From: Candidatus Heimdallarchaeota archaeon
GTDB lineage: Archaea; Asgardarchaeota; Heimdallarchaeia; Heimdallarchaeales; Kariarchaeaceae
NCBI GenBank assembly: GCA_030149205.1
Contig: JASBSB010000007.1
Location: 548,473-612,472, forward strand
Direction: 5' to 3'
DNA length: 64,000 nucleotides
Shown: piece by piece, positions 8,951-33,738 of the stretch
How positions within the stretch are numbered: the stretch's first letter is position 1
Layout: every line of letters begins with the position of its first letter
Position numbers and translations under genes: made by a program
The notes under the pieces: model-generated
Told to the model about the DNA's origin: nothing
Databases searched by the model: none
What the model saw: only the letters and a program-made list of their open reading frames with translations

Positions 8951-10303
8951 ATGAGTTCAAAAGAGAAGAATAACTACATCCATGTTTCGAGAGCCAAAAT
9001 TAAATTTACCTCATCCATATCCGGGATAATAGAGGGTATAAACGAGTTTCCGAAGATGTATCATTCATATAAAGGAGAGCAATATCTAGCTATTGGTTCA
9101 ACAGTTTCAATACAAGATCGAACTCATAATTTTAAGCAACTCTCAAATGAAATTTTTTCATATACCTTTCCAGCTGATTTAAACACACCAGTGTGGTTTG
9201 GTGGATTATCCTTTTATCCAAAGCAAAACGACGAAGAACATACATGGAGGGGTTTTTCAGCTCAACATTTCTTTATTCCAAAGGTCTTACTTAGAATTTC
9301 TACCACAAAATCAGAACTAATTGCATTCTCAAAAGAGTCCAAGGAGAAAGCTAAGGCAGTATTACAAACCTTTCAAAAAAAGATGATGGCTGTTCATAAA
9401 AATCAATCTGAGCCAACATTGGTTTCTGAAATCTCCGAGAGAACTGAAACAGACTTAATTAGTCTTGAACAATGGAAAAAACAAGTAAAGTTTACACTTG
9501 AGTCAATAGAGAAGAAAAAAATATCCAAAATTGTTCTGGTAAGAGGTAAAAGAATTAACATATCAAATTATGAATTTTCAATCTCTGAAACCCTGCACTC
9601 ACTAAACAAGAAATTTCCAGAGTGCATTATTTATGCCTTTCAGGTTGCCAAAAACTCAATTTTCTTTGGAGCAACTCCTGAGATACTCTTTGAAACGAGC
9701 TCAGGGTCACTTCAAACCATGGCACTAGCGGGTTCAATTAACAGAGGAAGCTCAGATCTTACTGATCAAATTCTCACCAAACAGATGTTTGCTTCTATCA
9801 AACTTTCAGAGGAACACAACATAGTAGTTAATTACCTCAAAAAAAATCTTAGTAAGCTATGTGATGAGATAGTAGTTTCTGAGAAGCCAGATGCACTAAA
9901 GCTCAACAACATACAACATCTCAGGACCAGACTCTCAGGTGAACTAAAATCTCAGAAATCAGTTTTTGACATAATTAAGGAGTTTCATCCTACTCCTGCA
10001 GTTGGGGGGATGCCTCCCAAAAAGGCTATAACTACCCTCGGTATGCTTGAAACTTTCGACAGAGGTTGGTATAGCGGAACAATGGGGATAATCTCTCCAA
10101 ACAATGATGCCTTGTTTGGTGTAAATATTCGTGGTGCATTATCCTTGAATAATGGGGTTTGGATGTATGCTGGTGCTGGAATTGTAAAAAATTCTCATGC
10201 AGAGGATGAGTGGAAAGAGGTGGAACTAAAATTTTTAGCTGTTTATAACTCACTATATTATTATAAAAAGAATGAAGGAGAGCAGAATGAAAACACCTCT
10301 TAA
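8951..10303 (+). CDS. menF: Isochorismate synthase (chorismate-binding family)
   Basis: Chorismate-binding motifs (FFGATPEILFE, ALAGSINRG, QHLRTRLSGELK, LHPTPAVGG-like FHPTPAVGGMPP, YSGTMGI); adjacent to menD. Confidence 0.88.
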   Translation: MSSKEKNNYIHVSRAKIKFTSSISGIIEGINEFPKMYHSYKGEQYLAIGSTVSIQDRTHNFKQLSNEIFSYTFPADLNTPVWFGGLSFYPKQNDEEHTWRGFSAQHFFIPKVLLRISTTKSELIAFSKESKEKAKAVLQTFQKKMMAVHKNQSEPTLVSEISERTETDLISLEQWKKQVKFTLESIEKKKISKIVLVRGKRINISNYEFSISETLHSLNKKFPECIIYAFQVAKNSIFFGATPEILFETSSGSLQTMALAGSINRGSSDLTDQILTKQMFASIKLSEEHNIVVNYLKKNLSKLCDEIVVSEKPDALKLNNIQHLRTRLSGELKSQKSVFDIIKEFHPTPAVGGMPPKKAITTLGMLETFDRGWYSGTMGIISPNNDALFGVNIRGALSLNNGVWMYAGAGIVKNSHAEDEWKEVELKFLAVYNSLYYYKKNEGEQNENTS

Positions 10304-11978
10304 TTTAACGTATGCACAGCTCATCGTTGATGAATTGATAAGGCAAGGTGTGACCAGATTCGTATGTTCACCAGGGTCAAGGTCAACCCCACTTGTATTT
10401 GCGATTTCATTAAGAAAAGAGCATATCAAATATCATATTATTATAGATGAGAGGTCTGCTGGTTTTTTTGCCTTAGGACAGGCAAAGGAGACAGCTCAAC
10501 CTGTGGCTTTGATTTGTACTTCGGGTACTGCTGTTGCAAATTATTTTCCAGCAATTGTTGAGGCTCATTACACAAATATTCCAATGATTGTTCTTTCAGC
10601 AGATCGTCCACACAGTCTTCGAGATGCTGGAGCAAATCAAACAATCGACCAAATCAAAATCTTTGGTGGTTATGTTAACCATTTTGTAGATTTACCAACT
10701 CCACAACCTTCAATCACTGATCACGAACGTAAGGTTTTGACAGGGATTGCGGCTAAGGCTTATCATGCATCCCTTTTTCCAACTAAAGGTGTTGTACACC
10801 TGAATCTTCCCTTTGTTAAACCTCTGGAACCCACAGAAGAAGAAACTCTAGAAAATCTTAAATTCGTCAAAGGTTCAAAAATCAAATTTTTTCATCCTAG
10901 GAAACTAAACGGTTTTGAGAATGGGGATGATTCATTTCAAGGAAAGGTTCTAATAATAATGGGAGCAATCATTCCTGATGATTTGGACTTGTTTGACCTT
11001 AAGGCTCTTTTAGAACAAAAAGGGGTTCCTGTGGTTGCAGATGTGTTGACCAACTTCAGATCCTTGGGTTGTTCAACTCTTATTCAATCATTTGAGGGTA
11101 TTTTAAGTAGCTCTAATTTCGTTAAGCGGTTTGATCCTGACACAATTATCCTTATTGGAAAAAATCCCAGCTCAATTTCTGTTAACAAATTTCTCTATAA
11201 AACAAAGGCTCAAAAGATACAACTGAGTACTAACTCTGATTGGAATGATGAGACCTACCAAACAACACTAAAGGTAGAATTGCCAGGCGAGCAAATCCCA
11301 GAGTTTTTGAATAACTCTATAACACAAATAGATACAGGTTATCTTTCATTACTATCCAGTTTAGACAAAAGTCTTGATGATTCTCTTCCGCAATCATTCT
11401 CAGAAATAGGTGTAGCTAATAAACTACTTCAAATGCTGGAAGATTCAACTATTTTCTTAGCTAACAGTTCTGTAATACGTAACTTTGACATTGTGTATCG
11501 TTTCTCTCCTCATAAATCACTAAGATTTCTAGGGAACCGTGGAGTGAGTGGGATTGATGGGAACATTTCTACTGCCGTTGGTGTTGCACTCTCATCGGAA
11601 AACCGAGTTTACGCAATTATGGGTGATCTAGCCTTTCTTCATGACTTAAACTCAATGTCGATTGTACAAAAGTATAAACCTAAAGTTGGGATAATTGTCT
11701 TTAACAATTCTGGTGGAGGTTTATTTAAAAGACTACCCATTTTTCAACACAAAACAGTTTTTTCTGAGTTTTATTCAACCCCCCAAAACTTTAACATTAA
11801 AGACATTTGCGCTGCTTTTTCATTAGACTATTATGAAGTAACAGCCATGGAATCCTTAAATCGTTTCAATTTCGCAGAGATGGAAACCCCCTTTTGTCTT
11901 GAAATCAAATTAATTTCAGACGCAGAGCCTGAAGCCTATTTAGAATACCTGAAGACATGTCAGAATAAAATGGCTTAA
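10287..11978 (+). CDS. menD: 2-succinyl-5-enolpyruvyl-6-hydroxy-3-cyclohexene-1-carboxylate synthase
   Basis: ThDP enzyme; SPGSRSTPLVFAIS, ICTSGTAVANYFPAIVEAHYTNIPMIVLSADRP, GNRGVSGIDGNISTAVGVAL; likely ATG at 10287 overlaps the menF end. Confidence 0.93.
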   Translation: MKTPLNLTYAQLIVDELIRQGVTRFVCSPGSRSTPLVFAISLRKEHIKYHIIIDERSAGFFALGQAKETAQPVALICTSGTAVANYFPAIVEAHYTNIPMIVLSADRPHSLRDAGANQTIDQIKIFGGYVNHFVDLPTPQPSITDHERKVLTGIAAKAYHASLFPTKGVVHLNLPFVKPLEPTEEETLENLKFVKGSKIKFFHPRKLNGFENGDDSFQGKVLIIMGAIIPDDLDLFDLKALLEQKGVPVVADVLTNFRSLGCSTLIQSFEGILSSSNFVKRFDPDTIILIGKNPSSISVNKFLYKTKAQKIQLSTNSDWNDETYQTTLKVELPGEQIPEFLNNSITQIDTGYLSLLSSLDKSLDDSLPQSFSEIGVANKLLQMLEDSTIFLANSSVIRNFDIVYRFSPHKSLRFLGNRGVSGIDGNISTAVGVALSSENRVYAIMGDLAFLHDLNSMSIVQKYKPKVGIIVFNNSGGGLFKRLPIFQHKTVFSEFYSTPQNFNIKDICAAFSLDYYEVTAMESLNRFNFAEMETPFCLEIKLISDAEPEAYLEYLKTCQNKMA

Positions 11979-12628: not shown

Positions 12629-13486
12629 ATGTTAATTGGGGTACATTGCTCAATAAGTGGAGGATTAGTAAATGCTCCTCTTGAAGCTCAATCATTGTCA
12701 TGTAGCACTTACCAAATTTTTACCAGGTCCTCACGGTCTTGGAAAACACCCGAATTGAAGTCGGAACAGGTCGAACTATTTAAGAGAAAGAACAAAGAGT
12801 TAGGATTTAGTAATCTTGTAACTCATTTACCCTATCTCCCAAATTTTGCTAATCCGGACAAAGAAATTTATAGTAATTCTCAACATAATTTAATTGAAGA
12901 GGCTAAACGATGTGACATCTTAGAAGTTTCTAACTTGGTGGTTCATATAGGGTCACATAAGGGCTTAGGTTCTAAAAAGGGTATTTTGACAGTGCAATCA
13001 CATTTAGAAAAATTTATTCAGTCTGAATTTAAGGTCAACATCTGTCTTGAGATTTCAGCAGGTTCCAAAAATTCAGTGGGGAGTACTATCGAAGAATTGC
13101 AGCAGATCCGCGATGGATTATCTGAAACTTCTCAGATCAAAATCTGTCTTGATACAGCTCATGCTTTCGCCTCAGGATATGATTTTAGAAATAAAGAAGC
13201 TGTAGATACTTTTACTGATGAGTTTGAGTCTTTGATTGGATTCAAAAATCTAGCAGTTATTCATGTGAACGATTCTAAAGTTGATGTAGGTGGAAAGGTG
13301 GATCGTCATGAACATCTTGGAAAAGGCTATATTGGAATGCAGGGCTTACAAAACCTCCTTAGGCACAAAAAAATTGTAGACCTTCCTATACCAAGAATTC
13401 TTGAGACACCTCGTGATACTAAAGAAGCGGATAAAATTAATTTAAAGATATTATCAGAAATTGTTAATGGGCCATGGCAGATTTGA
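12629..13486 (+). CDS. nfo: Endonuclease IV (AP endonuclease)
   Basis: GVHCSISGGLVNAP, FTRSSRSWKTP, VVHIGSHKG, CLDTAHAFASGYD, VIHVNDSK, HEHLGKGYIG motifs. Confidence 0.92.
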   Translation: MLIGVHCSISGGLVNAPLEAQSLSCSTYQIFTRSSRSWKTPELKSEQVELFKRKNKELGFSNLVTHLPYLPNFANPDKEIYSNSQHNLIEEAKRCDILEVSNLVVHIGSHKGLGSKKGILTVQSHLEKFIQSEFKVNICLEISAGSKNSVGSTIEELQQIRDGLSETSQIKICLDTAHAFASGYDFRNKEAVDTFTDEFESLIGFKNLAVIHVNDSKVDVGGKVDRHEHLGKGYIGMQGLQNLLRHKKIVDLPIPRILETPRDTKEADKINLKILSEIVNGPWQI

Positions 13487-13554
13487 ACTGCCGACCTCAC
13501 GGTTTCAAACAAAGTTATCAGCCGTGCGCTCTAACCAAGCTGAGCTAATAGCCC
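13468..13554 (-). tRNA. tRNA-Ile(GAT) with a 12-nt intron
   Basis: Reverse complement GGGCTATTAGCTCAGCTTGGTTAGAGCGCACGGCTGATA[ACTTTGTTTGAA]ACCGTGAGGTCGGCAGTTCAAATCTGCCATGGCCCA folds as a cloverleaf; 7-bp acceptor stem, TTCAAAT T-loop, GAT anticodon; no encoded CCA. Confidence 0.92.
13504..13515 (-). other. tRNA intron (12 nt) at canonical position 37/38
   Basis: Removing ACTTTGTTTGAA restores a 5-bp anticodon stem CACGG/CCGTG with 7-nt loop CTGATAA. Confidence 0.85.
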
Positions 13555-13724
13555 ATTCTATTGGTGCTTACACCTGTAACCCTGAGTCCGTAGTCAATTG
13601 TTTAAAGATATCGGTTCTGACCCGTTTACTAAAATAATTATTAACTGAAATTACTTTTGATAAAGCGAATCTAAATCCCGAAACCGAACTAGAATTTATT
13701 AAACCAAAAATCGATTATTATACA

Positions 13725-24725: not shown

Positions 24726-25142
24726 ATGAACAAAAAAGTTCTTTTTATCTGTACGCATAATTCCGCCCGTTCTCAGATGGCTGAGGGATTAACCAATCAT
24801 TTCTTTCCAGATGTTCAAGCCTTTAGTGCAGGAACAGAAAAGACTCGTGTGAAACCTGAAGCAATAGAGGCACTGAAAGAAATTGATATAGATATCAGCC
24901 ACCACACCTCCAAAACGACCGAGGCCTTTCTTAATGATCAATTTGATCTGGTTGTCACTGTCTGTGATAGCGCAAAGGAATCTTGCCCTTTCTTCCCAAA
25001 TGCAAAATTGCGGGCTCATGCTGGGTTTAAAGATCCCTCTGATATTACAGATCCGAAGGAGAGACTTTTAGCATTTAAAAGAACCCGAGATGAGATTTTA
25101 GACTGGTTACATGATAACCTTATGGATTTACTCGAGGACTGA
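24726..25142 (+). CDS. arsC: Low-molecular-weight phosphatase-type arsenate reductase
   Basis: VLFICTHNSARSQMAEG P-loop; VVTVCDSAKESCPFFP; FKDPSD. Confidence 0.88.
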   Translation: MNKKVLFICTHNSARSQMAEGLTNHFFPDVQAFSAGTEKTRVKPEAIEALKEIDIDISHHTSKTTEAFLNDQFDLVVTVCDSAKESCPFFPNAKLRAHAGFKDPSDITDPKERLLAFKRTRDEILDWLHDNLMDLLED

Positions 25143-26118
25143 AAAACTGAAGAAATACATCCCACGTTAACTTACTAGTCATTAGATCATATTTTGCATC
25201 AAAATTTGGGGATGTACACCCTGGGGAAATAACTCTAACAAATTGAAATCTGATAGTATGGTTGTTTTTCTCCGCATTCAACATCATTTTATAATCATTG
25301 ATTGAATCCCCAAACATCACAAGCTGTCTGATTTCTGGATTCTGGTAAATAAGTTGGTTTAAGGCATAAGGATTAGGTTTAAGCAGGCTTTGTCCATTTT
25401 CAACACAATTTTCTATGAAGAATCGAGAATCTGGCAAGAATAAATCTTCAATCATATTACTCTCAAGAAATAAGTCTAAATCAACCTTGGGTCTTCCAGT
25501 TACCACAGCAAGCTTTACCATTGAAGAGAGCCTCCTCAAATCATTAAAGTCAACCAATAATTGTTCCTTCATGTACAAGGGGTCCGGGTTAAGGTGTTTC
25601 AGATAAGGTATGTTTCCATAAATTTTCTCAAACATCTCATTACCGTAATAAAACTGCTGGAAAATGTTTTCCAATAAATTTGTTGCCAAAATATCACCAT
25701 TGTTTTTGAGAAAGACCGGTGGATTAGCTTGAATTAGGGATAAGTAGCTCTCAGGTTTTGATCCAACTCCATTCAAAAATATCTGAAATTTCTTTACAAA
25801 GTCTCCTGTAAGATTTTGTTCTTTGAAATTCATCTTTTCATACTTTAATCTATCGAATCGACTGTTATTCCCAGATACAATAGAGATCATAAACAGAATA
25901 AACAATGATGCAACATCATAATCTGAATTGAATCCTTCAATCTCTTTCACCCTGCAATAATCATCGAGGTTAAAGAGTATATCTGGGATGTTGTTCCATC
26001 CTAAGACCTCTGTAAGATAAGTTTCAGCGGTCTTAATAGCAGCTACACCATAAGAATGCAATGTGCTGACTAAGGTCTCATCCACATCAAATACAAACAT
26101 GGTGTCAAAATCAGGCAA
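25120..26118 (-). CDS. HAD superfamily hydrolase
   Basis: FVFDVDETLVST motif I; VVTGRPK motif II; MFGDSINDYKMMLNAEKN motif IV. Confidence 0.85.
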   Translation of the reverse strand: MPDFDTMFVFDVDETLVSTLHSYGVAAIKTAETYLTEVLGWNNIPDILFNLDDYCRVKEIEGFNSDYDVASLFILFMISIVSGNNSRFDRLKYEKMNFKEQNLTGDFVKKFQIFLNGVGSKPESYLSLIQANPPVFLKNNGDILATNLLENIFQQFYYGNEMFEKIYGNIPYLKHLNPDPLYMKEQLLVDFNDLRRLSSMVKLAVVTGRPKVDLDLFLESNMIEDLFLPDSRFFIENCVENGQSLLKPNPYALNQLIYQNPEIRQLVMFGDSINDYKMMLNAEKNNHTIRFQFVRVISPGCTSPNFDAKYDLMTSKLTWDVFLQFFSPRVNP

Positions 26119-26218
26119 TGTTAATTTTTTAATGTAAACATCTGTTAATTAGGTTCCTATTCACTCATAACTAATCAAAAAAGATGTTCGTTCTTTGTTT
26201 GTTAGACAAGAAACAAGT

Positions 26219-26227
26219 GTTTAAATC
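26219..26227 (+). promoter_or_regulatory. Candidate TATA box of the histidine operon transcript
   Basis: GTTTAAATC about 32 nt upstream of the His-rich short ORF; archaeal spacing predicts a TSS at or next to its ATG. Confidence 0.45.
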
Positions 26228-26251
26228 TTAGTATGAGCAGAACATATTAAC

Positions 26252-26353
26252 ATGAAATGTGGCATTATCAAAGCAAGAGGAAATTTGAACAGTCGAATTC
26301 AGAATCTAATTGACCTGGTAAGCCACCATCATCATATACATCATCATTTATAA
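26252..26353 (+). CDS. Candidate his operon leader peptide: MKCGIIKARGNLNSRIQNLIDLVSHHHHIHHHL
   Basis: 33-aa ORF not in the supplied track; 7 His codons in 8 positions, about 95 bp upstream of hisIE, about 25-30 nt downstream of a TATA-like element. Confidence 0.7.
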   Translation: MKCGIIKARGNLNSRIQNLIDLVSHHHHIHHHL

Positions 26354-26409
26354 TTTAACGAACTGCATAAAAGAATCAAAAATTATTTTCTATAAAACCA
26401 ATGTTTGAT

Positions 26410-26436
26410 CTTCTCTGGCTGATAATGCCACAGAAG
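26410..26436 (+). promoter_or_regulatory. Inverted repeat/hairpin directly before hisIE
   Basis: CTTCTCTGGC-TGATAAT-GCCACAGAAG: 10-bp stem with one mismatch; followed by AAGG and the ATG at 26448. Confidence 0.65.
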
Positions 26437-26447
26437 AAGGTACCAAC

Positions 26448-27500
26448 ATGATATCGTTAGTCATAGAACAGAATCTTTACGCTTCACTAGAACCTAATAT
26501 TCGAGAGGTTCTATATATCTGCTTCCCACTCACAATTGAAAAGGGGTCTGCTTCATATCCTCTTCCGGAAGATTTCAAAGTTAGATCTGAGAAAAGCCCT
26601 GAAGATTGGATAAAAGTCGGAGCAACGGAAATTTATCTCGATAATACTCAAGAGACGAACTATGGACAATGGAAAGAGATCTACAGTATCGAAGATTTGA
26701 AAAATCTCGTCAATCACATCTCAGTCCCAACAGTAGTTGATTTTCAATCTACTAATTTTGACCCTGTGCTCCTTGAACAATCAATCAAGAATCTACCATC
26801 TTTAATCCCTGTAACAATAGTGTTTGATTATAAATCGTTAGATACTCTTTTAACCCTTATATCACTGGATCTCGATCTAGGGATACGTGTAAGAAATACT
26901 CAAAGCATTACTGAATTGTTGAGGAATTATACAAACCTTCTGAAATTTAATTCTGAGAAATTGATTCCTACTGTCACCTTAGATCAAGACTCTCGCTTTC
27001 TTATGATGGCCTACTCAAGCCGTGAATCAGTAGATCTTACAATTGACACTAGGTATGCAACTTATTTCAGTCGATCCAGATCAAGACTTTGGAAAAAGGG
27101 TGAAACCTCAGGAAACTTACAACAGATCACTAAGATTAGGATGGACTGTGATAGGGATACCTTGGTCTTCTATACCACCCCTCTTGGTCCAGCTTGTCAC
27201 AGAGGCACATACAGTTGCATTGGAGGGAAGCAGTTAAGATATAAGGATTTCTTTACAAGAGTCCAAAAGAGAATTATAAACCCAGATCCCAATTCTTATA
27301 CTCAGAGGTTGATCAAAGATCCAAAACTTCTTTCAGACAAGATAGCAGAAGAGAGTAACGAAGTAATAAATTACACAGACAAAATGAACTTAGTTTGGGA
27401 GATTGCTGACCTCACATATTTTGTATCTGTACTTATGATCAGGGAAGGTATACGGGCAAAAAACGTTTTACGTGAATTGAAATCTAGGGAGAGAAATTAG
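26448..27500 (+). CDS. hisIE: Bifunctional phosphoribosyl-AMP cyclohydrolase / phosphoribosyl-ATP pyrophosphatase with about 185-aa N-terminal extension
   Basis: YFSRSRSRLWKKGETSGN, DCDRDTL, GPACHRGTYSC (HisI); SYTQRLIKDPKLLSDKIAEESNEVI..WEIADLTYF (HisE). Confidence 0.92.
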   Translation: MISLVIEQNLYASLEPNIREVLYICFPLTIEKGSASYPLPEDFKVRSEKSPEDWIKVGATEIYLDNTQETNYGQWKEIYSIEDLKNLVNHISVPTVVDFQSTNFDPVLLEQSIKNLPSLIPVTIVFDYKSLDTLLTLISLDLDLGIRVRNTQSITELLRNYTNLLKFNSEKLIPTVTLDQDSRFLMMAYSSRESVDLTIDTRYATYFSRSRSRLWKKGETSGNLQQITKIRMDCDRDTLVFYTTPLGPACHRGTYSCIGGKQLRYKDFFTRVQKRIINPDPNSYTQRLIKDPKLLSDKIAEESNEVINYTDKMNLVWEIADLTYFVSVLMIREGIRAKNVLRELKSRERN

Positions 27501-27502
27501 CT

Positions 27503-28495
27503 ATGAATGGTAAGACAAGTTCAACAATTAAAATTGGCATTCCATCTAAAGGGAGAATGGGAGAAGAAACCATTGAGTTCCTCAAAAAATGTGGTTTGGA
27601 AGTAAAGAGAACAAGACGTAACTATTTTGCTTCTATTCCAGCCTATCCTGACATCAAGGTGGTTTTACAAAGGCAAGAAGACATTGTAAAAGGGGTCACC
27701 TCAGGTCTGCTTGAGATGGGTATCATCGGATTTGATTTATATACTGAAATTTTGAATAGTGAGGAGAAGAGACAAACAATAGTATTGTTTGACGACCTTG
27801 AGTTTGGAAAATGTGACTTAGCAATCGCAGTTCCTGAGGAATGGGAAATTTCTGATATTACAGAATTTGATCGGTCAAAGGGGTATAGAGTTGCAACAAA
27901 ATTCACTAACACAACCCAGGAATTTTTGGATACGCAAAATATCGCTTTTCAATTTGTTGAAGGTGCAGGAACACTCGAAATCTCACCAGCTTTGGGAAAT
28001 GCAGATTTCATTGTTGATTTGGTATCAACGGGCCAAACGCTCAAAGATAACAGGTTGAAACAGATTAACAACGGAAAGATACTCAGTTCACAAGCGATAT
28101 TTGTTGGAAACAGGACAATCCTGAAATCAACCCCTGAGGCTTTACACATAGCTAGCGATTTAATAGAAATATTTGCCGCAACATTAAGAGCAGAAAAATT
28201 TGTATCTGTATTTGTTAATATGAGGGGAAATAACAGGCAGGAGATAATTGATCAATTTTTTACTGTGGATGGATTAGAGGGTTTACAAGGTCCTACAGTG
28301 TCAGATGTATACACAAAGGACAACGGGGACTGGTTTGCGGTTCATCTTGTGGTGGCAAAGAGAAACTTACTCACAGCAATAAAAAACATCAGACAACTCG
28401 GAGGTTCTGGGGTTGTTGTTTCGGAGACTAATTATATCTTTGAGGAGGAACCAAAGCAGTACACTCTCCTTAAAGAACAGCTTAGGGGTGAATAA
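27503..28495 (+). CDS. hisG: ATP phosphoribosyltransferase, long form
   Basis: IGIPSKGRMGEETIEFLKKCGL; VEGAGTLEISPALGNADFIVDLVSTGQTLKDN; C-terminal regulatory domain. Confidence 0.93.
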   Translation: MNGKTSSTIKIGIPSKGRMGEETIEFLKKCGLEVKRTRRNYFASIPAYPDIKVVLQRQEDIVKGVTSGLLEMGIIGFDLYTEILNSEEKRQTIVLFDDLEFGKCDLAIAVPEEWEISDITEFDRSKGYRVATKFTNTTQEFLDTQNIAFQFVEGAGTLEISPALGNADFIVDLVSTGQTLKDNRLKQINNGKILSSQAIFVGNRTILKSTPEALHIASDLIEIFAATLRAEKFVSVFVNMRGNNRQEIIDQFFTVDGLEGLQGPTVSDVYTKDNGDWFAVHLVVAKRNLLTAIKNIRQLGGSGVVVSETNYIFEEEPKQYTLLKEQLRGE

Positions 28496-29836
28496 ATGAA
28501 GATACTAAACGTTGATGAGGCTCGTAAGAGCATATTACTAAGAAGGCCTCTGATTGATTATGAATTGCCAGACAGACTAAAAGATGCGATTAAATCAATC
28601 TTTGGAAAAGATCTGGATGCAAGGGGTGTTGTGCTTCAAATAATTGATGATGTTATAAATGATGGAGATAAGGCACTAAAAGACCTAACCAACAGAATTG
28701 ATGGTGTTCAGATGTCGAATTTCAAAGTTCAGAGTGATGAATTTGAGAATGCTGAGTTTAACACAGAAAATGACATTTTAGTCGCATTAAAAGAATCAAT
28801 AACCCGAGTATATAGATTTCATCAGCAACAACCTGTTAACTCATGGGTTACTCAGGAGTTAGGTGGAACTCTTGGTCAACTTATACGACCAATTGAAAGA
28901 ATTGGCTGTTATGTCCCAGGTGGCTCAGCTCCTCTTCCCTCAACAGTCATAATGAGTATAATTCCTGCAATTGTTGCGGGGGTTAAACAAATTGTTATCA
29001 CAACTCCTCCTCAAAAATCTGGAGAAGTTTCCACAGTAATTCTTACAGCAGTGCAATTAATAAGAGAACAATTCCCTGATATAGAACTATCTTTATACAA
29101 GGTCGGTGGTGCTCAAGCAATCGCTGCTATGGCGTTTGGAACACAAACAATCCCCAAGGTCGATAAAATAGTAGGGCCCGGTAATATTTTTGTCTCGATA
29201 GCAAAAAAAGAGGTATTTGGGGTTGTTGGAATTGATGGAATTGCTGGACCAACAGAGGCCATGATTCTTGCAGATGAATCTGTAAATGCTGATCTGATAG
29301 CTGCTGATCTTCTTGCACAGGCAGAACATGATCCGATGGCAGTACCCATTCTGGTTACGACCAGCCTAGACTTTGCTTTACTGGTCAACAAATGTGTTGA
29401 GAAGCAAGTTGCAGACCTTTCCAGATCAGAGATAATCAAATCATCTATAAACAACAGGGGTGGAATCGTGTTAGTTGACAGCATTGAACAAGGAATTGTT
29501 ATAGTCAACGAATTTGCACCAGAACATCTTTCACTTGCAGTGAAAGGTTATTGGGACATTATTCCCAAGATTCATAATGCTGGAGGTATATTTCTTGGTG
29601 AGCTTTCTTGTGAGGTTCTAGGTGATTACATCGCGGGACCAAGCCATGTGATGCCCACAGGTGGTTCTGCTAAATATGCCTCACCTTTGAATATATTAGA
29701 CTTTGTGAAGATCGTCAGTCTCGTTGGACTCGATAAGTCAACAGTCCAAAAAATATCTACGCAAGCAGAAACAATAGCCCAATCCGAAAAGCTGACTGCA
29801 CACGCAGCAGCAGCTAAACTTAGGAGTCAGATATAA
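28496..29836 (+). CDS. hisD: Histidinol dehydrogenase
   Basis: RPIERIGCYVPGGSAPLPSTVIM; KVDKIVGPGNIFV; IDGIAGPTEAMILAD; GDYIAGPSHVMPTGGSAKYASPL. Confidence 0.95.
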   Translation: MKILNVDEARKSILLRRPLIDYELPDRLKDAIKSIFGKDLDARGVVLQIIDDVINDGDKALKDLTNRIDGVQMSNFKVQSDEFENAEFNTENDILVALKESITRVYRFHQQQPVNSWVTQELGGTLGQLIRPIERIGCYVPGGSAPLPSTVIMSIIPAIVAGVKQIVITTPPQKSGEVSTVILTAVQLIREQFPDIELSLYKVGGAQAIAAMAFGTQTIPKVDKIVGPGNIFVSIAKKEVFGVVGIDGIAGPTEAMILADESVNADLIAADLLAQAEHDPMAVPILVTTSLDFALLVNKCVEKQVADLSRSEIIKSSINNRGGIVLVDSIEQGIVIVNEFAPEHLSLAVKGYWDIIPKIHNAGGIFLGELSCEVLGDYIAGPSHVMPTGGSAKYASPLNILDFVKIVSLVGLDKSTVQKISTQAETIAQSEKLTAHAAAAKLRSQI

Positions 29837-30942
29837 TGATCCCTAGAATTGCAGTACAGTCAATGGAAGCTTATTCTCCATTAAAAAGTCTAAAAGAAAT
29901 TTCAGAAGAGATAAAGCTCGATGTCAATGAAATCGTCAAACTCAATGGGAACGAGAACCCATTTCCATTATCATTTCAAATGACTGATACCATAAACTTA
30001 GAAGTATATCCAGACCCAGAGTCGAAGGTTCTCACTCAAAAGATTGCAAATTTTGTTGGGTTAGCACCAGATCAGGTCTTTGTTGGTGCTGGTGCGGATG
30101 AAATAATTGATCTGATACAACGGGCATTTCTCAATCCAGGTGATAGAGTAATCAGCTTAGAACCAACATTCAGCATGTACGAGTTTTTCTGTAATCTGAA
30201 CTCGGGAAATTTTATATCAATCCCCATGAGGAAGGTGGTTAATCTCAACCTATCAGAATATCAAATCCCCACAGACAAGGTGCTGAAGGAGGCAGATAAT
30301 GCAAAGATGATTTTTCTTAGCTCACCTAATAATCCAGATGGGAAGCTGGTCAACAATAATCTTATCTTAGAATTACTACGGAAAGGGGTGCTCGTTGTAC
30401 TGGATGAGGCCTATATTGAATTTTCACATCAATCACCAACAATAAACTTAGTAAATGAGTATTCAAATCTGATTGTCTTAAGAACCTTCAGCAAAGCGTT
30501 TGGACTGGCTGGCATGAGAATTGGGTATGCACTTCTAAACCCAGAGTTAAAGTTCATCCTCCAGAAGATCAAGCAACCTTATAATGTTACAACATTGTCT
30601 CAAAATCTCGCAATAAATGCATTGGAAAGAATTAAGGAGATACAAGAGAATGTAGAAGTTATAAAAGAGATCAGAGATGAATACTTTCAAAAATTTTCTG
30701 AGCTGACTATTCAAACCGACCAATTGAAAATTCACAGATCAGATGCAAATTTCATTCTAATGGACTTTACTACTCCAAAAATTGCAAGTGAGATTTTCCA
30801 GTATCTGAAGCAAGAGGGAGTTCTCGTAAGATATTACAATAATGAAATACTTAACAGCTCAATACGTGTATCAATCGGGAGAAGGGAACAGATGGAGAAG
30901 GTTTATTCTCTTCTCTCAAAAAAACTAGCGGTGATAAAATGA
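29836..30942 (+). CDS. hisC: Histidinol-phosphate aminotransferase
   Basis: LNGNENPF; VFVGAGADEIIDLI; FLSSPNNPDG; TFSKAFGLAGMRIGY. Confidence 0.93.
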   Translation: MIPRIAVQSMEAYSPLKSLKEISEEIKLDVNEIVKLNGNENPFPLSFQMTDTINLEVYPDPESKVLTQKIANFVGLAPDQVFVGAGADEIIDLIQRAFLNPGDRVISLEPTFSMYEFFCNLNSGNFISIPMRKVVNLNLSEYQIPTDKVLKEADNAKMIFLSSPNNPDGKLVNNNLILELLRKGVLVVLDEAYIEFSHQSPTINLVNEYSNLIVLRTFSKAFGLAGMRIGYALLNPELKFILQKIKQPYNVTTLSQNLAINALERIKEIQENVEVIKEIRDEYFQKFSELTIQTDQLKIHRSDANFILMDFTTPKIASEIFQYLKQEGVLVRYYNNEILNSSIRVSIGRREQMEKVYSLLSKKLAVIK

Positions 30943-31535
30943 CAAGACAAGGAGAAATCAGTCGAAAGACAAAGGAAACAGAAATCAAAGTTGTAATAAA
31001 CTTGGATGGAGAGGGAAACACGAACATATCAACAGGTATTGGGTTCTTGAACCACATGCTCACAGCATTCGCTGTTCATGGAAAATTTAACCTAGAGGTA
31101 AAAGCAATTGGGGATCTAGATATTGACACACATCACACAGTGGAAGATATAGCCATCTGTCTGGGGCTAGCAATACAACAAGCAATAGGAGAAAAAAGAG
31201 GGATTGAACGAATGGCAGATTCCTTTGTTCCAATGGATGAATCTCTGGTTCGTGTAGTCTTGGATCTATCAGGAAGACCATATTTTGTTAGTGACTTCAA
31301 ATGGGATTCTCCCTTAATTGGAAGTATCAGCTCTCAGATCATTAAAACCAGTGAGATTGAACATTTTCTAGAAACCCTTGCCTTCAGATCACTTACCACA
31401 CTTCACATAAAGGTGTTCTATGGGAGAGATGACCATCACATGTCTGAAGCTGTTTTCAAGGCACTTGGGAGGGCATTGTATAAAGCAACTAGGATTGTTG
31501 GCACTACTGTTCCCTCATCAAAGGGAATACTGTAA
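30939..31535 (+). CDS. hisB: Imidazoleglycerol-phosphate dehydratase (monofunctional)
   Basis: GIGFLNHMLTAFAVHGKF; DTHHTVEDIAICLG; NDHHMSEAVFKALGRAL-like DDHHMSEAVFKALGRAL. Confidence 0.95.
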   Translation: MTRQGEISRKTKETEIKVVINLDGEGNTNISTGIGFLNHMLTAFAVHGKFNLEVKAIGDLDIDTHHTVEDIAICLGLAIQQAIGEKRGIERMADSFVPMDESLVRVVLDLSGRPYFVSDFKWDSPLIGSISSQIIKTSEIEHFLETLAFRSLTTLHIKVFYGRDDHHMSEAVFKALGRALYKATRIVGTTVPSSKGIL

Positions 31536-31546
31536 GAGGATAAAAG

Positions 31547-32149
31547 ATGATAGCAATAGTTAATACTGGCTCTGGAAATCTAAGATCAGTTCAAAAAGCA
31601 CTTGAATTATTTTATCCAGAGATTAAGATAATTGATACCCCAAAAAGCATCAGTTCAGCAGATGGGATGGTCTTGCCTGGGGTAGGTTCCTTTGGTGATG
31701 CAGTTGATACATTAAATGAAATAGATCTTTTTGAGGAAGTTAAGGAGTTGGGAAAATCCATACCGGTACTTGGAATTTGTCTGGGAATGCAGATTCTTTT
31801 TGAGCGATCTGAAGAGTCACCAGATGCTACAGGTTTAGGATTGTTAAGAGGAGAGGTTTTAAAACTTCATCCTCTCAATGATACTAATGTCCCACATACT
31901 GGTTGGAATCGTTTAATTCCACAGCAAAAGGAACAGAAGATTGAGAACCTTAAGTACGCCTATTTCAATCACTCATATTACTGCCACCCTGAGGATGAAA
32001 ATGTTATTGATTATTCTGTTATCCATGGGGGAAAATATCCCGCGATTATCCAGAAGAGAAATATCTTAGCAACACAGTTTCATCCAGAAAAGAGTAGAGA
32101 GAGTGGTGAACAGGTGTTGAAGTATTTTGTGAGGTCGGTTAGACAGTGA
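31547..32149 (+). CDS. hisH: Imidazole glycerol phosphate synthase glutaminase subunit
   Basis: NTGSGNLRSVQKAL; GICLGMQILFERSEE; FHPEKS. Confidence 0.94.
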   Translation: MIAIVNTGSGNLRSVQKALELFYPEIKIIDTPKSISSADGMVLPGVGSFGDAVDTLNEIDLFEEVKELGKSIPVLGICLGMQILFERSEESPDATGLGLLRGEVLKLHPLNDTNVPHTGWNRLIPQQKEQKIENLKYAYFNHSYYCHPEDENVIDYSVIHGGKYPAIIQKRNILATQFHPEKSRESGEQVLKYFVRSVRQ

Positions 32150-33738
32150 AGAAAATACTTGTAGCAATAGATCTCATGAACGGAGAGGTAGTCAGACTTA
32201 GCCAAGGTGAATTTTCAAATAAGACAGTCTATTCAAAGACGCCTCTAGATGTAATGAAGAAGTTTGTCTCAGAAGGGGTCGAATGGTTTCATATTGTAAA
32301 CCTTGATGGAACACAAGCAGAACCGAAAATACAACCCAATAATGGAACCAATAATGGAACCAAAACAGGAACTAATAATGAGACTGACGATGACAGTAGG
32401 TCTGCCAATTTAACCGTCATAAGACAACTGATCAAGTATGGAAAATCAGTTGGGGTCAGTATTCAAATTGGTGGAGGGGTAAGAAATTATACCCAGGTCA
32501 AAAAATACCTTGAAATTGGTGTTGACAGGGTTGTGATTGGAACCTTGGTGTTCAGTGATCCAACTGAATTTAAAAAAATATTATCCGCGTATTCGACTCA
32601 AGTAGTCGTTGCTCTTGATGTCTTGGATGGAATTGTAAGGGTTCATGGTTGGACTAAATCAACAGAGACAAGCATTGAAACTGCAATCTCTGACCTTCTT
32701 TCTCTTGGTGTATCCAACTTTCTTGTGACAGACATCAAGAAGGATGGAATGCTGTCAGGAATTAATACTGAACTTTACAGAAAAATTCAATCCCTTTTAG
32801 ACAGTTCGGAGAGTAAAAAATCAGGGAATCACATTGAGATTATTGCTTCTGGGGGTGTAAATTCTCTTGACTCAATTAAATCTGCATTAGAGGTCTGTGG
32901 ATCTGTTGTCGTAGGTAGGAGTCTATATGAGGGAACAATTAACCAAGCTCAACTTGGAAACATAATTTTGGCGTATAACAAAAGCTATCTGACAAAACGA
33001 ATCATTCCATGTCTTGATGTAAAAAATGGGAAGGTTGTCAAGGGGGTCAACTTTCTCAATCTCAAAGATATAGGTGATCCAGTCGAGATGGCAATGTACT
33101 ACAATGAAAAAGGGGCTGATGAGCTTGTGTTTTTAGATATTACTGCCACAGTTGAAGGTCGAAAAGCAACACTTTCCAAGATACGTGAGGTTGCAGAGAC
33201 TGTATTCATCCCATTCACAGTTGGTGGAGGGGTCAAGACACTTGCCGATATTCAAGATATCATTAATGCAGGAGCAGAGAAGGTCGCCATTAATTCGGGA
33301 GCGATAAGCAACCCAGAAGTTCTGACTCAGGGTGCACATAAATTTGGCTCTCAATGCATAGTCTTAGCTGTCGATGTTAAACAAAAAGGTGACACTTGGG
33401 AGGTTTACTCTCAGGCAGGAACACAACCAACAGGGCTTGATGCATTTAGATGGATTGAGAAAGCCATATCTAAGGGAGCAGGTGAAATTCTTGTCACAAG
33501 TATAGACAGAGACGGAACCAAACAGGGTTTCGATTTACAGCTGTTGTCAGAGCTACGAGCAAGATTCAAGGTACCCATTATTGCTTCTGGTGGTGCTGGT
33601 CAAGTAGAGCATTTTGCAGAGATATTTGACATTGGGATTGATGCAGGATTGGCTGCATCCATCTTTCATGAGAGAGAGATTGAGATTCATACCCTGAAAA
33701 GGCTATTGAAAAGTCGAAATGTTAGAGTAAGAATCTGA
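32146..33738 (+). CDS. hisAF: HisA-HisF fusion protein: ProFAR isomerase (about residues 1-280) + IGP synthase cyclase (about 282-530)
   Basis: Uninterrupted 530-aa [32 protein letters not shown].. then [62 protein letters not shown] start. Confidence 0.95.

Follow-up and report, generated by a model that had tools for sequence, protein, structure and literature searches.

Immediately upstream of hisIE, the first gene of a histidine biosynthesis (his) operon in a 64,000-nucleotide stretch of DNA from Candidatus Heimdallarchaeota archaeon (hereafter the window), lies an RNA hairpin (26410-26436) that we consider, on balance, to be the output element of a histidine (His)-sensing leader-peptide switch governing this operon in an Asgard archaeon. 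A short open reading frame (ORF) of 33 codons, located 94 nt upstream of hisIE, encodes a peptide that ends in HHHHIHHHL. Strands 1 to 4, distributed over this leader and the spacer that follows it (Table 1), can adopt two mutually exclusive folds, 1:4 or 3:4, and in silico it is the position of a ribosome on the leader that selects between them.

Central to this reading is a perfect 13-nt inverted repeat between strand 1 (26258-26270) and strand 4 (26420-26432). Matches of this length were obtained in none of 400 shuffles, in which the longest match was 11 nt, and the pair is the sole match of at least 12 nt among 425 segments of 203 nt across the 64 kb. Within the 3.3-Mb genome exact copies are limited to these two, while seven one-mismatch copies are all located within genes. 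Such a distribution also bears on the possibility that the GTGGC-type repeats function at the DNA level, as operators for a transcription factor close to the promoter, and not as RNA strands. While the copies are found just past the promoter and in the leader region, and a DNA-binding repressor, HisR, is reported to be able to control bacterial his genes (PMC9413887), operators of this kind are highly improbable here, given that the genome's only exact copies are the two in the leader region, that the unit is not palindromic, and that the second copy lies 170 nt downstream of the first, at the start of hisIE.

Taken alone, the hairpin is better than expected by chance, yet modestly so (p 0.016-0.07 by several counts). 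Folding of positions 26400-26460 yields -14.9 kcal/mol (z -2.26), a value equalled by 3 of 200 shuffles, and shuffle tests return p=0.016 for 26397-26452 and p=0.048 for the whole spacer (26354-26447); stem length by itself is reached in 34 of 500 shuffles. The comparison with shuffled controls proposed in an earlier reading of the DNA, made from the letters alone (the sequence-only reading), is therefore decided in favor of the hairpin, though by a modest margin. An inverted-repeat search delimits arms at 26409-26419 and 26427-26437 that are 91% complementary, and the stability of the hairpin ranks third among the 51 start regions of the window. In the local fold the Shine-Dalgarno (SD) sequence and the AUG are open with probabilities of 0.23 and 0.27, respectively, such that both the SD and the start codon are enclosed in the hairpin.

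Table 1. Features of the hisIE leader region and operon (positions in the window; MFE, minimum free energy)
Feature	Position	Strand	Description	Basis
TATA-like box	26220..26227	+	TTTAAATC; ~28 nt upstream of leader ATG	read from sequence
Leader ORF	26252..26353	+	MKCGIIKARGNLNSRIQNLIDLVSHHHHIHHHL, then stop; seven His codons (26324-26335, 26339-26347)	ORF list
Strand 1	26258..26270	+	UGUGGCAUUAUCA; leader codons 3-7; partner of strand 2 or strand 4	repeat search and folding
Strand 2	26316..26326	+	UGGUAAGCCAC; runs into first His codon; pairs with strand 1	MFE pairs
Extended hairpin	26401..26449	+	encloses hisIE SD and AUG	folding
Strand 3	26409..26419	+	hairpin 5' arm	inverted-repeat search
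Start-site hairpin	26410..26436	+	5' arm CTTCTCTGGC (26410-26419), loop TGATAAT (26420-26426), 3' arm GCCACAGAAG (26427-26436)	read from sequence
Strand 4	26420..26432	+	UGAUAAUGCCACA; hairpin loop and 3' arm; exact complement of strand 1	inverted-repeat search
SD-like sequence of hisIE	26434..26441	+	AAGAAGGT	read from sequence
hisIE	26448..27500	+	PRA-CH and PRA-PH domains, N-terminal extension; ATG 26448-26450	Pfam
Remaining operon	27503..33738	+	hisG, hisD, hisC, hisB, hisH, hisA-hisF fusion	Pfam and locus comparison

The influence of a translating ribosome was modeled by masking the nucleotides from -13 to +15 relative to the P-site and folding positions 26248-26462, both the mask and equilibrium folding being simplifications. 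With the A-site on leader codons 1-15, helix 3:4 forms with a probability of 0.89-0.96, helix 1:4 with at most 0.06, and the SD is open at ~0.24. With the A-site on codons 17-30, these values become 0.00-0.01 for 3:4, 0.99-1.00 for 1:4 and ~0.69 for SD opening; this range includes five of the His codons (all but the last two), at which 1:4 stands at 1.00 and 3:4 at 0.00. In the model, stalling on the His codons thus opens the hairpin, in keeping with induction by His starvation.

The core idea of the sequence-only reading, in which a His leader switches a hairpin at the start site that acts through occlusion of the ribosome-binding site (RBS) rather than as a terminator, is supported, and the coordinates, arms, loop and lack of a following T run that it gave for the hairpin are all borne out by the sequence. 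Its proposed alternative fold fared differently: AGCCA (26321-26325) and TGGCT (26416-26420) are positioned as described, as is a U-rich stretch, TTATTTTCT, at 26383-26391 in the spacer between the leader and hisIE, but pairing of AGCCA with TGGCT has a probability of 0 in every ribosome state tested. AGCCA would, moreover, lie beneath a ribosome halted at the first His codons. A fold that could work, overlooked at the time, would instead be the pairing of 26258-26270 with 26420-26432, freed once a ribosome covers 26316-26326.

In the mechanism that we infer from these elements, leader translation, ribosome stalling and RNA refolding would together regulate the operon. When His is plentiful, the ribosome would complete the leader, helix 1:2 could re-form behind it, and helix 3:4 would close over the SD and AUG of hisIE, resulting in low expression. 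When charged His-tRNA is scarce, the ribosome would stall on the His codons and cover strand 2, strand 1 would then pair with strand 4, and the hairpin would open, allowing expression of hisIE and the downstream operon. Control is probably translational, and its effect is perhaps spread along the operon by archaeal polarity, which has been ascribed to FttA in a review (PMC12548453). In E. coli and Haloferax, according to the same review, there is little reinitiation coupling over distances greater than ~30 nt (PMC12548453), which disfavors plain reinitiation across the 80-94 nt in question.

It is also possible, though unlikely, that the leader is a genuine His sensor whose decision is transcriptional, the stalled or departing ribosome controlling premature termination in the 94-nt spacer by way of U-rich sites or FttA, with the hairpin tuning translation or being incidental. 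The U-rich stretch in the spacer and the polarity ascribed to FttA would suit such a model, as would the T tracts found downstream of certain leaders in other Asgards (a hairpin-like repeat followed by T8 in one his locus, T6-T7 after Trp leaders; see below). On the other hand, no clean T run follows any hairpin in the window, an intrinsic terminator, that is a hairpin with a T run, was not encountered before the first gene, and the sole significant long-range pairing is aimed at the RBS hairpin.

Several observations weigh against a translational switch of the kind outlined above. Firstly, with the ribosome at the stop codon or on either of the final two His codons, the model returns a mixed state (1:4 at 0.72-0.90), and queued ribosomes could cover strand 1. 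Secondly, when no ribosome is present the two folds are within 2 kcal/mol of each other (3' ends 26441-26500) and hence near balance, such that the OFF state would rely on ribosomes over strand 1 or on the order of folding. Thirdly, the rise in SD opening from 0.23-0.27 to 0.69 is obtained for a 3' end at 26462 and not for one at 26487; in transcripts ending at 26487 the SD and AUG are closed in every state, being paired with hisIE coding sequence. Lastly, the window's nearest relatives (G001-G003) have no His leader, and no significant long leader-to-spacer helix resembling 1:4 was found in the other lineages.

Comparison with other Asgards addresses the leader itself. HisIE matches were obtained in 74 of the 232 genomes of the phylum and some 60 loci were compared, among which His-rich leader ORFs precede the first his gene in 11 loci belonging to families f1, f18 and f19. 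In addition to the window, these are L149 (G090), L150 (G135), L153 (G114), L158 (G140), L159 (G120), L160 (G151), L161 (G118), L162 (G096), L163 (G128) and L164 (G098), and they differ in gene order and in the identity of the first gene (hisIE or hisC). The frame of L162, read from an internal TTG, looks broken when compared to its close relative L164, and within f19 a His leader is absent before the his operons of L151, L152 and L154-L157. Under a strict test for a His tail (at least four His within 12 of the last 14 residues, with a gene start no more than 250 nt away), 12 ORFs out of 808 qualify, ten of them before the first genes of his operons and two before other genes; L149 fails the test solely because of the placement of its gene start. 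The same test applied to tryptophan (Trp) identifies six of the 808 ORFs, all at trp operons (five before trpE, one before a trpA-like gene), and no Trp tails before non-trp genes. Clustered codons for the end product, situated before the cognate operon, are found in 11 his and six trp leaders. Values of pN/pS along the leaders are near 1, so only the reading frame and the tail look conserved. Runs of CAY3-N3-CAY3 elsewhere in the Asgards mostly lack a plausible start or lie far from a gene, and, bar two at his operons, none of those inspected precedes a recognized amino-acid gene.

The Trp-tailed leaders (L249, L250, L251, L257, L260 and L263) end in TWFWAWRWHA and a stop, or in close variants. 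In these, the 5' untranslated region carries AAGUUG, a potential pairing partner for the CAACUU located at the first Trp codon, and a hairpin surrounds the leader stop, with T6-T7 tracts then following in several; across the five leaders that were aligned, the nucleotides flanking the stop codon show strong conservation. Downstream of the G090 His leader (L149, 4320-4430) is the repeat CTGATTTTC..GAAAATCAG and then T8, which could represent a terminator of the attenuator type in a further Asgard lineage.

Six his leaders were aligned from f19, a family that we take to be of Lokiarchaeal type. Four helices are present: P1, which begins upstream of the leader ATG and reaches into the leader; P2, within the leader; H1, beginning at the leader stop; and H2, ending directly before the SD. 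In this alignment 95.2% of cells are paired, compared to 92.0% in shuffles and 24.6-47.8% in slid registers, and eight pairs have changed on both sides, a count reached in 0 of 500 shuffles; drawn from these six related sequences, this covariation lends support to the structure without amounting to proof. H2 occupies the same place as the window hairpin, directly before the SD, and does not itself cover the SD. The possibility that the 3' arm of H1 closes the SD when a ribosome occupies the leader stop was considered as well and set aside, as such pairing is seen in some members and is inconsistent across the set.

The Lokiarchaeal type shows no equivalent of the window's helix 1:4: the His leader, as the putative sensor, is shared among Asgards, and its RNA readout is lineage-specific. 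More broadly, there is good reason to think that His and Trp leader peptides represent a widespread Asgard means of sensing charged tRNA via the translating ribosome, a ribosome-mediated attenuation in Archaea. The RNA that reads out the leader would vary between lineages, and in one of them it would act as a translational switch, the first gene's start site being opened by a strand located behind the stalled ribosome. It is, by comparison, improbable that the hisIE hairpin is incidental, either because the His leader acts without it or because the leader has no regulatory role: the hairpin is modestly unusual and is exceeded in stability by two other start regions of the window, but its exact 13-nt complement in the leader, the location of His and Trp tails at cognate operons in all except two ORFs, and the covariation of a hairpin immediately upstream of the SD in leaders of the Lokiarchaeal type all speak against such a reading.

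Leader-peptide attenuation is a textbook form of bacterial regulation. As in the enterobacterial his attenuator (hisL; Rfam His_leader) and trpL, the window has a short leader ORF with a run of end-product codons before the operon, and competing helices chosen by ribosome position. It differs in being archaeal, in having no terminator hairpin with a T run, and in that its variable helix lies over the start of the first gene; moreover, its switching strand lies behind the stalled ribosome, with the control codons on strand 2. Searches of Rfam returned no match in the window at the gathering score, none for 26180-26520 when E values up to 5 were admitted, and none in seven Asgard his and trp leader loci, the His_leader covariance model included. 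In translational attenuators of the ermC type, stalling of a ribosome within a leader ORF changes the RNA fold and releases a start site that a hairpin had sequestered, as proposed here. In the window, however, the stall would result from a shortage of charged tRNA and not from an antibiotic, the target is an archaeal biosynthetic operon, and the freed strand would pair across the stalled ribosome. Amino-acid-specific leaders were also inferred comparatively for attenuators of amino-acid operons in Actinobacteria (PMC1262725); those are bacterial, while the elements described here are found in Asgard archaea. In the open-licence literature no archaeal leader-peptide attenuator was found, the attenuation papers retrieved being concerned with bacteria, although this does not prove priority. 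If such attenuation does operate at the his and trp operons of Asgard archaea, the prokaryotes known to be most closely related to eukaryotes, then amino-acid sensing by the ribosome, codon by codon, would extend beyond bacteria, and translation would be closely coupled to RNA folding or transcription in these cells; the switch is directly testable by short reporters.

With respect to the operon itself, the TATA-like box predicts a transcription start near 26248-26250, which would render the leader mRNA almost leaderless. The hisIE start at 26448 matches the equivalent residue of relatives (MISLVIEQ compared to MLILKVEM). Where the window HisIE (26448-27500) carries an N-terminal extension, relatives G001-G003 have a HisA domain (a HisA-HisIE fusion), and the window encodes a HisA-HisF fusion at the end of the operon (32146-33738); the extension may be a decayed HisA. 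Adjoining the leader is a divergent HAD-family gene (25120-26118, - strand), which may encode a histidinol-phosphate phosphatase, given that in relatives a HAD domain is fused to or located beside his genes.

The genome to which the window belongs encodes a eukaryote-like actin (445 bits), from which it is presumed to be that of an Asgard archaeon. Grouping of its his proteins indicates that the operon is mosaic: HisG groups with the window's own family (support 100/99), whereas HisD (28496-29836) groups with the f19 type, near Chloroflexota; the contig search for HisD returned bacterial matches only, and these served as outgroup. Contamination by a foreign contig or bin was considered and is ruled out by the grouping of HisG with its own family. 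Elsewhere in the window, a tRNA-Ile (GAT) of 89 nt at 13467-13555 (- strand) is longer than usual and perhaps contains a small intron, and neighboring genes at 8951-11978 match isochorismate synthase and MenD, which suggests menaquinone synthesis in this archaeon.
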